Shown here piece by piece: positions 23,158-29,449 of a stretch of DNA of 64,000 nucleotides. The notes below the pieces were generated by a model, which had not been told where the DNA came from, did no database searches, and was given only the letters and a program-made list of their open reading frames with translations. Numbering within the stretch: the first letter of the stretch is position 1; the number at the start of each line of letters is the position of its first letter. This DNA comes from Flavobacterium sp. N1994 (GTDB taxonomy: Bacteria; Bacteroidota; Bacteroidia; Flavobacteriales; Flavobacteriaceae), in the NCBI RefSeq assembly GCF_025947145.1, contig NZ_CP109999.1, positions 992,001 through 1,056,000 of the forward strand. Reading direction: 5' to 3'. The position numbers and the translations under genes are program-made.

Positions 23158-23160
23158 ATA

Positions 23161-23190
23161 GAAGAAAGAAGCAAGAGACAAGAAGCAAGA
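23161..23190 (+). repeat. Left arm of the inverted repeat around S23 gene 1
   Basis: A purine-rich stretch (GAAAGAAGCAAGA at 23164-23176, then a second AAGAAGCAAGA at 23180-23190). The first 13 bases pair perfectly with 23559-23571, and the rest pairs imperfectly with 23546-23562. It starts four bases after the marR stop and ends three bases before the S23 start. Confidence 0.75.
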
Positions 23191-23193
23191 CTT

Positions 23194-23544
23194 ATGAAAC
23201 ATAATTTTAAAAATCTTAAAATATGGATATTGTCAATGGATATTGCATCAGATATAAATAAAATGACACATGATTTTCCTAAATATGAGGTTTATGGTTT
23301 AACAAGTCAAATGAACAGAGCTGCGATTTCAATGCCATCAAATATAGCTGAAGGGTCTAACAGAAGTGACATTCATTTTAAACATTTTTTAAATATCAGC
23401 TTAGGTTCCTCTTTTGAATTACAAACACAAGTATTAATAGCATATCAAAATAATTATATAACCGAAGAAAGAACAAAAGAAGTAGAAAATAAGATAATTG
23501 AATTCCAAAAAATGATTACTGGTTTTATCAGTAAATTGGAATAA
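23194..23544 (+). CDS. S23/IVS-type four-helix-bundle protein, copy 1
   Basis: 116 residues. Matches the family named for open reading frames in 23S rRNA intervening sequences: an aromatic start (NFKNLKIWILSMDIASDI), then the signature YGLTSQMNRAAISMPSNIAE followed by G-S-N-R-S, and FLNISLGSSFELQTQVLIAY. It is all-helical and forms a pentameric bundle in solved relatives; the Avd protein of diversity-generating retroelements is related. The biological role of the family is unsettled. The gene lies between marR and the FadB-like gene, is not needed for beta-oxidation, and is enclosed by an inverted repeat. Confidence 0.85.
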   Translation: MKHNFKNLKIWILSMDIASDINKMTHDFPKYEVYGLTSQMNRAAISMPSNIAEGSNRSDIHFKHFLNISLGSSFELQTQVLIAYQNNYITEERTKEVENKIIEFQKMITGFISKLE

Positions 23545-23545
23545 T

Positions 23546-23575
23546 CTTTTCTCTTGCTTCTTGCTTCTTTCATCT
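23546..23575 (+). repeat. Right arm of the inverted repeat around S23 gene 1
   Basis: A pyrimidine-rich stretch starting right after the S23 stop codon; TCTTGCTTCTTTC at 23559-23571 is the exact complement of 23164-23176. It ends about 12 bases before the FadB start. Confidence 0.75.
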
Positions 23576-25978: not shown

Positions 25979-26066
25979 AAGAAAGAAACAAGAAGAAAGA
26001 AGAAAGACAAAAAACAATCTTTCAGCAAAGCGGTCTTGCCTCTTGCCTCTTTCCTCTCAAAAAATA
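25979..26066. repeat. Empty inverted repeat of the GAAGCAAGA family
   Basis: A purine-rich arm (25979-26012) faces a pyrimidine-rich arm (26034-26058), with only about 20 bases between. Arms resemble those around S23 gene 1 but there is no gene inside. It fills the FadB-thiolase gap. Pairing is imperfect because many A face C. Confidence 0.55.
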
Positions 26067-26071
26067 AAAAT

Positions 26072-27252
26072 ATGAAAACAGCCTATATAGTAAAAGCATA
26101 CAGAACAGCCGTTGGGAAAGCGCCAAAAGGAGTTTTCCGATTCAAAAGACCCGATGAATTAGCTGCCGAAACCATTCAGTTTATGATGAATGAGTTGCCC
26201 GATTTTGATAAAACCCGTATCGATGATGTAATGGTAGGAAACGCCATGCCCGAAGCCGAACAAGGATTAAACGTAGCGCGTTTAATTTCGTTAATGGGAT
26301 TAAAAGTTACTGAAGTTCCGGTGTTACCGTAAATCGTTATTGCGCTTCAGGATTGGAAACCATCGCCATGGCAACTTCTAAAATTCAAAGTGGTATGGCA
26401 GATTGTATTATTGCAGGTGGTGCCGAAAGCATGAGTTTCATCCCAATGGGTGGTTACAAACCCACTCCAGATTATGCTGTGGCTAAAGAAGGTCACGAGG
26501 ATTACTACTGGGGAATGGGATTAACAGCAGAAGCAGTGGCCAAACAATTCAATGTATCTCGTGAAGACCAAGATGAATTTGCTTTTAATTCACACAGAAA
26601 GGCTTTGGAAGCTCAAGCAAATGGTAAGTTTGACAAACAAATCGTACCGATAACTATTGAGCAAACCTTCATCAATGAAAATGGTAAAAAAGAAACTAAA
26701 TCATACACAGTAACCAAAGACGAAGGACCAAGAGCTGGAACTTCTACAGCAGCTTTAGCCGGATTAAAACCTGTTTTTGCAGCTGGTGGTAGTGTAACGG
26801 CTGGTAATTCCTCTCAAATGAGTGATGGAGCCGCTTTTGTTTTAATCATGAGCGAGGATATGGTAAAAGAATTAAACCTCACTCCTATTGCCCGAATGGT
26901 AAGTTATGCAGCAGCAGGGGTTGAACCGCGAATCATGGGAATTGGTCCAGTAAAAGCAATTCCGAAAGCCTTGAAACAAGCAGGACTAACATTAAATGAT
27001 ATTAACTTAATTGAACTAAACGAAGCCTTTGCATCCCAAGCATTAGCCGTTACACGCGAATTAGGAATCAATCCAGAAATTGTAAATGTGAATGGTGGTG
27101 CCATTGCTTTAGGGCACCCGCTTGGCTGCACAGGAGCTAAATTATCGGTACAATTATTTGATGAAATGAAACGTCGTGGTGATAAATACGGAATCGTTTC
27201 TATGTGTGTAGGAACTGGGCAAGGTGCGGCTGGAGTCTATGAATTATTATAA
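26072..27252 (+). pseudogene. Acetyl-CoA acyltransferase (thiolase), frameshifted
   Basis: Read across one missing base it gives a thiolase of about 393 residues (MKTAYIVKAYRTAVGKAPKG start). The first frame stops at 26332; the second covers the rest and includes GGAESMSFIPMGG, NEAFASQA, GGAIALGHPLGCTGA (catalytic His) and MCVGTGQGAAGVYELL (second Cys). The break is at 26320-26321, where CCGGTGTT should read CCGGGTGTT, giving P-G-V-T-V-N-R-Y-C-A-S-G. The nucleophilic Cys lies just after the break, so neither piece alone can be active. Either a sequencing error or a real lesion. The enzyme would perform the last, chain-shortening step of beta-oxidation. Confidence 0.85.
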
Positions 27253-27275
27253 ATTTTAAATTCTAAATTTTAAAT
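27252..27275 (+). repeat. Left arm of the inverted repeat around S23 gene 2
   Basis: A 24-base AT-only-plus-one-C stretch that pairs with 27621-27644 at 22 of 24 positions. It begins at the last base of the thiolase stop codon and ends inside the S23 start codon. Confidence 0.75.
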
Positions 27276-27621
27276 GAAAGATAATTTGATAGCTAATAAA
27301 ACATTTGATTTTTCATTGATGATTATCAAATTATTTATTCAATTAAAAAAAGAAAACGAATTTATAGTTTCTAAGCAGTTATTAAGATGTGGAACTAGTA
27401 TTGGAGCAAATGTTGAAGAAGCGATTGCAGGTCAGTCAATGAAAGATTTTATCAATAAGCTTTCTATTGCTAACAAAGAAGCAAGAGAAACTAAGTATTG
27501 GTTAAGACTATTAGATAAATCAGAATTGACTAAAATAAATGTTGAAGAATACCTCATAGAAATAGAACACATAATCAACATAATAACTAAGATTATCAAA
27601 ACATCACAAGAGAAGAAATAA
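27274..27621 (+). CDS. S23/IVS-type four-helix-bundle protein, copy 2
   Basis: 115 residues of the same broad four-helix-bundle family as copy 1 but a different branch: FDFSLMIIKLFIQLKKENEF, then SKQLLRCGTSIGANVEEAIA (the R-x-x-x-S-I-x-A-N-x-x-E signature), and LSIANKEARETKYWLRLLDK. All helical, no signal peptide. Sequence similarity to copy 1 is low, so it is not a recent local duplicate. It sits in the thiolase-dehydrogenase gap and is bracketed exactly by an inverted repeat unrelated in sequence to that of copy 1. Role unknown. Confidence 0.85.
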   Translation: MKDNLIANKTFDFSLMIIKLFIQLKKENEFIVSKQLLRCGTSIGANVEEAIAGQSMKDFINKLSIANKEARETKYWLRLLDKSELTKINVEEYLIEIEHIINIITKIIKTSQEKK

Positions 27622-27644
27622 TTTAAAATTTATAATTCAAAATT
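27621..27644 (+). repeat. Right arm of the inverted repeat around S23 gene 2
   Basis: Complementary to 27252-27275 at 22 of 24 positions. It starts at the last base of the S23 stop codon and ends 15 bases before the dehydrogenase start. Confidence 0.75.
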
Positions 27645-27659
27645 TAAAATAATAAAGCC

Positions 27660-29449
27660 ATGAGCGATATAACAAGAGGAGGACAATTCCTCGTAAAAGA
27701 AACCAAATGTGAAGATATCTTCACTCCCGAAGATTTTTCGGAAGAACAAATTATGATGCGCGATTCGGTTAAAGAATTCGTGGACAAAGAGATATGGCCC
27801 AACAAAAACAGATTCGAGGCTAAAGATTATGCTTTTACCGAAGAAGTAATGAAGAAAGCTGGTGATATGGGTTTCCTGAGTGTTGCTGTTCCTGAAGCTT
27901 ATGGTGGAATGGGAATGGGATTCGTAGATACTTGCTTGGTATGTGACTATATTTCCGGAGCAACAGGTTCGTTTTCTACAGCCTTTGGGGCTCATACTGG
28001 AATTGGGACTATGCCCATTACGTTATACGGAACCGAAGAACAAAAACAAAAATACGTTCCTAAGTTAGCCTCAGGAGAATGGTTTGGTGCTTATTGCCTA
28101 ACAGAACCAGGGGCGGTAGTGATGCCAATTCAGGAAAGACTAAAGCAGTACTTTCTGCTGATGGAAAAACCTATAGCATTACTGGAGGAAAAATGTGGAT
28201 TTCAAATGCTGGTTTCTGCTCACTATTCATCGTGTTTGCCCGAATTGAAGACGATAAAAACATCACTGGTTTCATTGTAGAAAATGATCCAGCTAATGGA
28301 ATCACCATGAACGAAGAGGAACACAAATTAGGAATTCGTGCTTCTTCTACTCGTCAAGTATTTTTTAATGAAACTAAAGTTCCTGTCGAAAATATGTTAG
28401 CCGGTCGTGGTGAAGGGTTTAAAATTGCCATGAATGCTTTGAATGTAGGTCGAATCAAATTGGCTGCTGCTTGTTTGGATGCGCAACGTAGAGTTACTTC
28501 AAATGCAGTGAATTATGCTAACGAAAGAATTCAGTTTAATGTTCCTATTTCTAGTTTTGGTGCAATACGATATAAATTAGCCGAAATGGCAACCTCAGCT
28601 TATGCAGGAGAAAGTGCCACTTATCGTGCAGCAAAAGATATCGAAACCCGAATCAAATTACGTGAAGCAGAAGGTACTTCTCACCAAGAAGCCGAGTTAA
28701 AAGGGGTTGAAGAGTTCGCTATCGAATGTTCTATTCTTAAAGTCGCCGTTTCGGAAGATGTTCAAAACGCTGCGGATGAAGGGATTCAGATTTATGGTGG
28801 AATGGGATTCTCTGAAGATACTCCGATGGAAAGTGCTTGGCGTGATGCTCGTATTGCTCGTATTTACGAAGGCACCAACGAGATTAATCGTATGTTATCC
28901 GTAGGAATGTTGATTAAAAAAGCTATGAAAGGACATGTTGATTTACTTGGACCAGCTTCTAAAGTACAAGAGGAATTGATGGGTATTCCTTCATTTGATA
29001 CACCTGATTACTCTGAGTTGTTTTCAGAAGAAAAAGAACTTATCGGTAAACTGAAAAAAGCCTTCCTTATGGTAGCGGGTGGTGCCGTACAAAAATATGG
29101 ACCTGATTTAGATTCACACCAACAGTTATTAATGGCTGCTGCTGACATCTTGATTGAAATTTATATGGCCGAAAGTACTGTATTGCGTACAGAAAAGTTA
29201 GCCAAAAAAGAAGGAGAAGCCAATGTAAAAGAGCAAATTGCTATGGCTAAATTATACTTATACAAAGCAGTCGATGTAGTAACTCAGAAAGGAAAAGAAA
29301 GCATTATCTCCTTTGCCGAAGGCGATGAACAACGCATGATGCTAATGGGATTACGTCGTTTTACAAAATATACTAACATGCCCAATATAGTTGGTTTAAG
29401 AGAAACCATTACCACCAAGTTAGTGGCGGAGAATGGCTATTGTTTTTAG
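27660..29449 (+). pseudogene. Acyl-CoA dehydrogenase, frameshifted
   Basis: Joined over one missing base it encodes about 597 residues: N-terminal helical domain, FAD-binding middle (GEWFGAYCLTEPGA then GSDANSGKTK, KMWISNAGF), C-terminal helical domain with catalytic-loop RIYEGTNEINRM, and an extra 150-residue C-terminal helical extension typical of the long bacterial acyl-CoA dehydrogenases. The first frame runs wild and stops at 28280. The break is at 28115-28116: GCGGTAGT should read GCGGGTAGT (A-G-S-D). It would perform the first, FAD-dependent step of beta-oxidation. The lesion type is the same as in the thiolase gene: one G lost from a run of three. Confidence 0.85.

Follow-up and report, generated by a model that had tools for sequence, protein, structure and literature searches.

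In RAYT/REPIN systems, a gene for an HUH tyrosine transposase (RAYT) is accompanied by flanking inverted repeats, solo copies of which are dispersed and matched to the lineage of the gene. A second point of comparison is the intervening sequence (IVS) found in 23S rRNA. The Coxiella burnetii 23S rRNA IVS, as described in the accessible part of PMC4990558, is 428 nt long, contains one S23p open reading frame (ORF) and is located in helix 45; its inverted repeats form a 28-bp stem, tandem heptamers (GACAGAT) that vary in number between strains lie 5′ of the ORF, and RNase III cuts the IVS at the first repeat. The same text calls the function and origin of rRNA IVSs unclear, a mobile origin being one hypothesis. 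Dispersed, mostly intergenic heptamers are described in Xanthomonas (GGGAATC) and Nostoc (GGGGA(C/T)T), with 70 convergent inverted GGGAATC pairs in Xcc, and were studied as G-quadruplexes (PMC4692102, in the sections available), and TAACTGA direct repeats occur, patchily and between genes, in Beggiatoaceae, cyanobacteria and Bacteroidetes (PMC4679880, likewise in part). The term 'S23' is absent from the main text of both papers. In the Nostoc trnL intron, the P6b stem consists of 7-nt repeats, and the repeat class has been replaced in several lineages; that stem, however, lies inside a group I intron, and the available portion of the paper (PMC4476775) does not mention S23. Among the literature matches listed, chiefly outside subscription journals, none links S23 to dispersed heptamer arrays.

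The window analysed here, a stretch of 64,000 nt from a 3.35-Mb genome with three S23 matches, contains two S23 elements, both on the forward strand, in a fatty-acid operon with the order MarR–[S23]–fadB–hairpin–fadA–[S23]–acyl-CoA dehydrogenase (fadB and fadA are named from our reading of their ORFs). Element 1 (23160–23575, 416 nt) and element 2 (27243–27653, 411 nt) each consist of an S23 ORF within terminal inverted repeats. In element 1, the S23 protein gene (23194–23544, 116 amino acids, referred to as type 1) stands between a left arm of AGAAGCA-type heptamers (23160–23190), which reads in sevens as AGAAGAA AGAAGCA AGAGACA AGAAGCA, and a right arm of the same type, inverted (23545–23575). 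In element 2, the S23 (23S rRNA-intervening-sequence protein) gene (27274–27621, 115 amino acids) is framed by a left arm of AAATTTT-type heptamers (27243–27275; AAATTTT AAATTCT AAATTTT) and a right arm of similar heptamers, inverted (27621–27653). A hairpin of AGAAGCA-type heptamers without S23 lies between fadB and fadA (25979–26056 on the forward strand, limits set by eye). The window elements share with the rRNA IVS an S23 ORF, inverted ends, heptamers before the ORF and a similar length. They differ in lying between protein genes of the fad operon, whereas the IVS lies in 23S rRNA, and the free-standing elements have many unit families and copies without S23. We class the elements as free-standing IVS-type units, with the anatomy of an IVS but not its rRNA location. 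Four 23S motifs, searched by exact match, are absent from the S23 loci searched, and the Coxiella unit GACAGAT occurs in 0 of 272 S23 elements. In the window, fadA is split into two frames (26036–26332 and 26353–27252), as is the acyl-CoA dehydrogenase gene (27660–28280 and 28079–29449); in the listed relatives, fadA is open over about 380–450 amino acids at most full-length matches. Errors in sequencing or frameshifts of recent date would explain the split frames.

In element 2, 27252–27275 is complementary to 27621–27644 at 22 of 24 positions, exactly as the original prediction stated, and the pairing extends to 30 of 33 positions between 27243–27275 and 27621–27653. Its arm score is 25; 1,000 dinucleotide shuffles peak at 16, so that none reaches 25, and none of 1,000 reaches the score of 23 obtained for element 1. 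Of 2,000 positions drawn at random from the window with matching geometry, 17 score 14 or more and none 16 or more. The pairing is thus beyond chance, as had been suspected. Chance pairing in AT-rich sequence is rejected by the shuffle controls at element 2, in the main set of loci and in a wide scan. The predicted placement on codon borders was also borne out: the left arm overlaps the thiolase stop codon (27250–27252) and reaches the S23 ATG (27274), and the right arm begins at the S23 stop codon (27619–27621), precisely on its last base. This exact fit is a single instance of a looser rule, in that over 97 S23 loci with arms the median distance is 7 nt between the stop codon's first base and the start of the right arm, and 33 nt between the end of the left arm and the start codon that follows it. 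The arms of the two elements are unrelated to each other, as claimed (cross scores of 10 and 11 versus 23 and 25 for their own pairing, with shuffle means of 9–10). The accompanying statement, that the common feature is the structure and not a repeat family, stands in its first half and fails in its second: in each element, the two arms consist of degenerate heptamers in tandem, oriented oppositely, which the first reading had overlooked; the element 1 unit is dispersed in the genome, and the unit is linked to the lineage of the S23 protein. The minimum-energy RNA folds of the two elements (z −2.3 and −2.2) have the paired arms as their terminal stem, and 2 of 100 shuffles fold equally well.

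Matches to S23 are present in 99 of 101 genomes of the same genus and in 157 of 198 sampled genomes of the window's phylum (Bacteroidota by inference). We compared the upstream flank with the reverse complement of the downstream flank, counting a score of at least 14 as arms, in a main set of 128 usable loci with 150-nt flanks (120 from whole genomes and 8 from plasmids, mainly of the window's phylum; one of 129 loci was left out because its flank is too short). Arms are present at 97 of the 128 S23 loci versus 2 of 128 after shuffling; the further controls gave 11/128 for swapped partners, 17/128 for direct orientation and 2/46 for neighbouring ORFs. A wide scan of public genomes from many phyla yielded at least 585 confirmed stretches, of which the best 80 were taken; L279 was dropped for a short flank, leaving 79 usable loci. 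Arms are found in 56 of these 79 (best 80 of at least 585), versus 0/79 after shuffling and 3/77 with swapped partners. The excess of complementarity around S23 genes implied by the original prediction is therefore present in both sets. By groups assigned from record titles, armed loci in the wide scan (best 80 of at least 585) number 22 of 29 in Bacteroidota, 8/14 in Proteobacteria, 5/6 in Planctomycetota, 5/5 in Firmicutes, 2/5 in Desulfobacterota, 1/3 in Nitrospirota, 3/3 in Patescibacteria, 2/2 in Acidobacteriota, 2/2 in Chloroflexota, 1/2 in Gemmatimonadota, 1/1 in Verrucomicrobia, 4/5 in three further groups, 0/1 for an archaeon and 0/1 for a cyanobacterium; the pattern in this best 80 of at least 585 includes G+C-rich sequence. 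The eight plasmid loci (six from cyanobacteria, one each from Treponema and Chlorohelix) carry heptamer-type arrays, as judged by eye. No arms at threshold were seen at 31 of the 128 main-set loci and 23 of the 79 wide-scan loci (best 80 of at least 585), and canonical S23 proteins are over-represented since the loci come mostly from the top of E-value lists. Plasmid records contain S23 matches in 25 and 21 cases, cyanobacterial for the most part, and a search of 50,697 phage records with the S23 of element 1 gave no match at E 1e-3.

The arms are arrays of short tandem units. An array score is reached by 129 of 193 elements, with a period of 7 in 95 and of 8 in 32, and where both arms could be scored (n = 54) the periods agree in 51, including 14 counted as 7 doubled. 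Array scores of 12 or more occur in 78 of 128 upstream flanks, compared with 3 after shuffling, 0 in gene bodies and 6 of 126 farther upstream. The arrays are also biased in strand: read in the sense of the gene, the left (5′) arm has more G than C in 111 of 129 arrays and more C than G in 14, and in the wide set (best 80 of at least 585) G exceeds C in 36 left arrays versus 1 and, taken as reverse complement, in 40 right arrays versus 2. The 102 distinct 7-mers yield a loose consensus, NAGTNRT, with an information of 2.08 (at most 1.77 in 20 column-permuted controls), and the 30 distinct 8-mers one of 3.53 (controls at most 2.65); the consensus search used 40 restarts for the real data and 15 for the controls. 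Between tandem genes, S23 is co-directional in 124 cases and opposite in 8, with neighbour direction taken from the longest open frame (132 of 186 decided in the main set, 7 too short). The wide set (best 80 of at least 585) gives 20 co-directional and 0 opposite, these being the 20 decided tandem contexts of 70 scored, with 10 more too short. Exceptions in orientation are the S23 genes between cas2 and cas1, which are antisense to both. Co-direction implies a connection between the element and transcription, established either as it inserts or by selection.

The unit of the arms follows the lineage of the S23 protein. This was assessed on 193 distinct elements, 131 of them with arms, using 110-nt flanks and pairs in which both members have arms (pairs below 35% identity were sampled 1 in 10). 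For elements at different sites, arms are shared in all nine pairs whose S23 proteins are 70–90% identical; six of these pairs involve element 1, and they therefore amount to about four independent cases. Sharing falls to 18/64 at 60–70% identity, 39/627 at 50–60% and 45/3,909 at 40–50%. By comparison, at the same site, S23 proteins 50–60% identical share arms in only 10 of 119 pairs. The heptamer unit therefore travels with the S23 lineage; arms as a property of the site are disfavoured. The idea of one unit per genome is rejected, as S23 loci of a single genome carry different units by eye. The third S23 of the window's genome (L002) has a left arm of AATTGTG type, whose pairing with element 2's right arm scores 20 (14 for the reverse pairing); since the arms cross-pair and the proteins are 50% identical, the two units may be related.

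The units are also dispersed away from S23 genes. In the window's genome, the element 1 pattern has 95 matches with at most three mismatches, versus 17 for a reversed control pattern; these fall into 38 clusters (within 450 bp), element 1 included, of which 8 are convergent pairs (one being element 1), 0 are divergent and 30 are one-sided at the threshold used. Across 101 genomes, AGAAGCA arrays number a median of 20 in the 19 genomes with type-1 S23 and 2 in the 82 without (p = 3e-7, kinship ignored), and AGAATAT arrays 24 in the 17 genomes with a second S23 type and 4 in the 84 without (p = 0.001, kinship ignored); the crossed pairings give p = 0.61 and 0.70. In the type-1 count, G006 and G043, which have stops in the match, were taken as 'with' and the more broken copy of G016 as 'without'. 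Exceptions exist on both sides, with four type-1 genomes having five or fewer AGAAGCA arrays and ten others 15 or more, and four second-type genomes having five or fewer AGAATAT arrays and eight without the type 25 or more. An unpaired AGAAGCA array in L163 (about 1877294–1877325) seems, by eye, to lie in frame inside an ORF reading ...LFRPPYGK, which we take to be polysaccharide-deacetylase-like. In 18 operons with both a fadA–acd S23 (acd, acyl-CoA dehydrogenase) and a fadB–fadA hairpin, hairpins score higher on average against S23 arms from their own genome (22.2 versus 16.4; 0/10,000 permutations); own-genome arms rank first in only 5 of the 18, and two, one of them the window, show a clear mismatch between hairpin and arms.

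Occupancy of the operon junctions was surveyed in 40 other genomes and the window with a loose hairpin classifier. The MarR–fadB junction (38 scored) has 2 S23, 3 hairpins and 23 short gaps; the fadB–fadA junction (41) has 6 S23, 27 hairpins and 5 short gaps, with two gaps (779 and 996 nt) that are not simple; and the fadA–acd junction (41) has 21 S23 and 4 short gaps, the remainder being chiefly other palindromes, as which at least six of the classifier's seven 'hairpins' there read. Elsewhere (for example, L209, L215, L218, L220, L237 and L241), the fadA–acd junction holds palindromes of GTCATTTCGACGAAGGAGAAATC and CCCCCTAACCCCC types, and it is a common hot spot for extragenic elements. Occupants of orthologous junctions belong to differing unit families. 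At the MarR–fadB junction, the window has an intact type-1 S23, G082 has about 115 nt deleted internally and G013 has arms and loop only, a series in which we see an element decaying into a hairpin. Each of the 18 other genomes that have type-1 S23 has its best match no more than about 500 nt from fadA, and the window's copy has therefore probably moved or been duplicated. Near-identical S23 copies within one genome were found neither in G097 (14 loci) nor in G044 (13 loci), where the sole 100% pair consists of overlapping stretches of one contig; the closest distinct copies are 77–78% identical, which suggests that movement is rare or old in these two genomes.

Empty sites, anticipated in the original prediction, do exist: orthologous junctions are empty or hold a hairpin or an S23 gene, and Nostoc plasmids offer alleles without S23 as well. 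In these plasmids, the element with its arms replaces 61 to 328 nt of the S23-free alleles. L035 carries an element of 422 nt, with AATTCGT arms, at the place occupied in L383, from the same strain, by 188 other nt, between flanks 90.5% identical over 739 nt on the left and 99.7% over 735 nt on the right; the element is likewise absent from L384, L385, L386 and L388. Given this unequal flank similarity, recombination could have made the L035 allele, and the element may lie at a border of such an exchange. In L037 and L391, a DNA cytosine methyltransferase gene is interrupted by an element of 466 nt, with 328 nt replaced; the gene is whole in L387 (252 amino acids), and its annotated length is similar in L390 and L392. 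On Nostoc and Anabaena plasmids, S23 lies between cas2 and cas1 (L034, 1189–1545; L036, 1189–1536); it is absent in L389, 61 nt being replaced for L034. The S23 alleles have lost an interval of the host, perhaps through the insertion mechanism or through later recombination. None of the nine S23-free Nostoc records compared has arms (inverted score 7–10, lag score at most 10), versus 29–35 for the five S23 elements. Border words shared in the five S23 records are 3, 3, 3, 4 and 6 nt long, the last in L034, and give no clear sign of a target duplication; a target unit already in place where the element inserted (CAATTCG) was seen at the left border of the L037/L391 event only. Past mobility of S23 elements, inferred from these alleles, is well supported; no transposition was observed. 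Two S23 regions on Calothrix plasmids have identical annotated neighbours and so look like a segmental duplication. A figure legend in the accessible part of PMC10910872 lists 23S rRNA IVP among its domains, and these could in part be insertions like the S23 elements between cas2 and cas1.

Both S23 proteins score well above the family cut-offs (PF05635, cut-off 33.8 bits: 80.8 for element 2 and 116.3 for element 1; TIGR02436, cut-off 24 bits: 98.1 and 110.8). The predicted structure of the element 2 protein is a confident four-helix bundle (pLDDT 93.9), with the best PDB match to 2RLD (TM 0.86–0.88) and a TM of 0.70–0.82 to 2GSC, an entry that the element 1 protein matches by sequence (E 8.8e-18). 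Since 2006–2007, the PDB has contained S23 structures as proteins of unknown function. We know of no catalytic domain in S23, and in Pfam the S23 ORFs match PF05635 only, apart from bAvd below its cut-off; a DDE, HUH or serine transposase domain is absent. S23 elements resemble RAYT/REPIN in combining a gene and inverted repeats with dispersed, lineage-matched copies, but S23 is a four-helix bundle without an HUH Pfam match, and the repeats are tandem 7/8-mers. The element 2 model also matches Avd (4DWL, TM 0.68–0.75; the 8UB7 RNP, 0.64–0.74; E 0.05 and worse). Unrelated bundles, pectin methylesterase inhibitors for example, appear at the same ranks, and since such bundles score alike and the E values are no better than 0.05, the likeness to Avd is suggestive only. 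Avd profiles score below cut-off for element 1 (PF22296, 22.3 bits against 40; NF033474, 22 against 80) and list no match for element 2. The available part of PMC10053308 notes the resemblance of PF05635 to Avd and suggests homology.

Most S23 genes tested are framed by inverted 7/8-mer arrays, a structure that is real, widespread and lineage-specific. We favour, with a probability of roughly 0.6, the reading that these are free-standing IVS-type mobile elements in which S23 acts with lineage-matched arms and the hairpins are non-autonomous relatives. The candidate unit, as in elements 1 and 2, would be about 410–420 nt long, with the S23 gene between inverted arrays of degenerate 7-mers, or of 8-mers in other lineages. 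By analogy with the rRNA IVS, the arms would pair in the transcript, enclosing S23 in a hairpin open to cleavage by RNase III, which would make insertion between the genes of an operon tolerable. S23, as an Avd-like bundle, may recognise its own unit in nucleic acid and help arm-bearing copies to spread or be renewed. Hairpins without S23 would then be non-autonomous or decayed copies served in trans, with catalysis presumably borrowed from the host. A bolder extension, which we consider less likely than not, makes S23 a trans-acting factor that creates, renews and spreads 7/8-mer arrays across bacteria, each lineage reading its own NAGTNRT-like unit; Xanthomonas GGGAATC, Nostoc GGGGATT and the cyanobacterial STRR would be footprints of one tiny IVS-type mobile element, which possibly works by way of RNA, assisting a reverse transcriptase much as Avd does. 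An exact GGGAATC dimer does occur in the S23 arms of Luteimonas L248 and an exact GGGGATT dimer in those of Planktothrix L041, each in 1 of 272 elements, and GGGGATT is present within one mismatch in 3/272 (shuffled heptamers, mean 2.1, maximum 7). For TAACTGA, an exact dimer is found in just 1/272 (L297) and near matches within one mismatch in 4 (shuffled mean 0.9, maximum 3), which makes its link with S23 weak. Together, these coincidences suggest a common source with S23 elements.

Other explanations account for parts of the evidence. S23 could be an immobile, regulatory RNA-binding protein, with heptamer hairpins as regulatory sites in mRNA and its own arms serving autoregulation. The match of unit to S23 lineage, the correlation of arrays elsewhere in the genome with S23 type, the co-direction of S23 with operons and its long persistence (18 of 18 other type-1 genomes have their best match no farther than about 500 nt from fadA) would all fit. 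We nevertheless consider this unlikely, because the junctions vary in presence and absence and hold different unit families, one element interrupts a methyltransferase gene, and differing S23 lineages occur with differing arms at one site. It is still less probable that the arms are a target, S23 genes having inserted into loops of pre-existing heptamer hairpins. Hairpins without S23 that have the matching unit exist, and the Coxiella IVS, in helix 45 (PMC4990558, in part), offers a precedent; against this, the arms track S23 lineage over different sites, and the nine S23-free Nostoc records are armless (7–10 versus 29–35 in the five with S23). Finally, the arms might simply arise where replication slips and quasi-palindromes are corrected at AT-rich borders of genes, with S23 incidental. 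Tandem units can expand in this way, and Coxiella strains differ in heptamer number (PMC4990558, as far as available), but we find this account hardly credible given that arms occur at just 2 of 46 neighbouring ORFs, that they are found in many phyla, G+C-rich sequence included (best 80 of at least 585), and that the unit is bound to the protein lineage.

The framed S23 genes suggest that a mobile element of very small size, related to the rRNA IVS, is widespread. To our knowledge, dispersed bacterial heptamer repeats have no known source, and S23 elements are a possible source of some of the unexplained repeats of bacteria. Where S23 genes have been described as 'associated' with CRISPR, defence or DGR loci, they may have inserted there. 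With the lineage-specific link between protein and repeat, both the function of the rRNA IVS and its S23 protein and the origin of heptamer repeats become testable.
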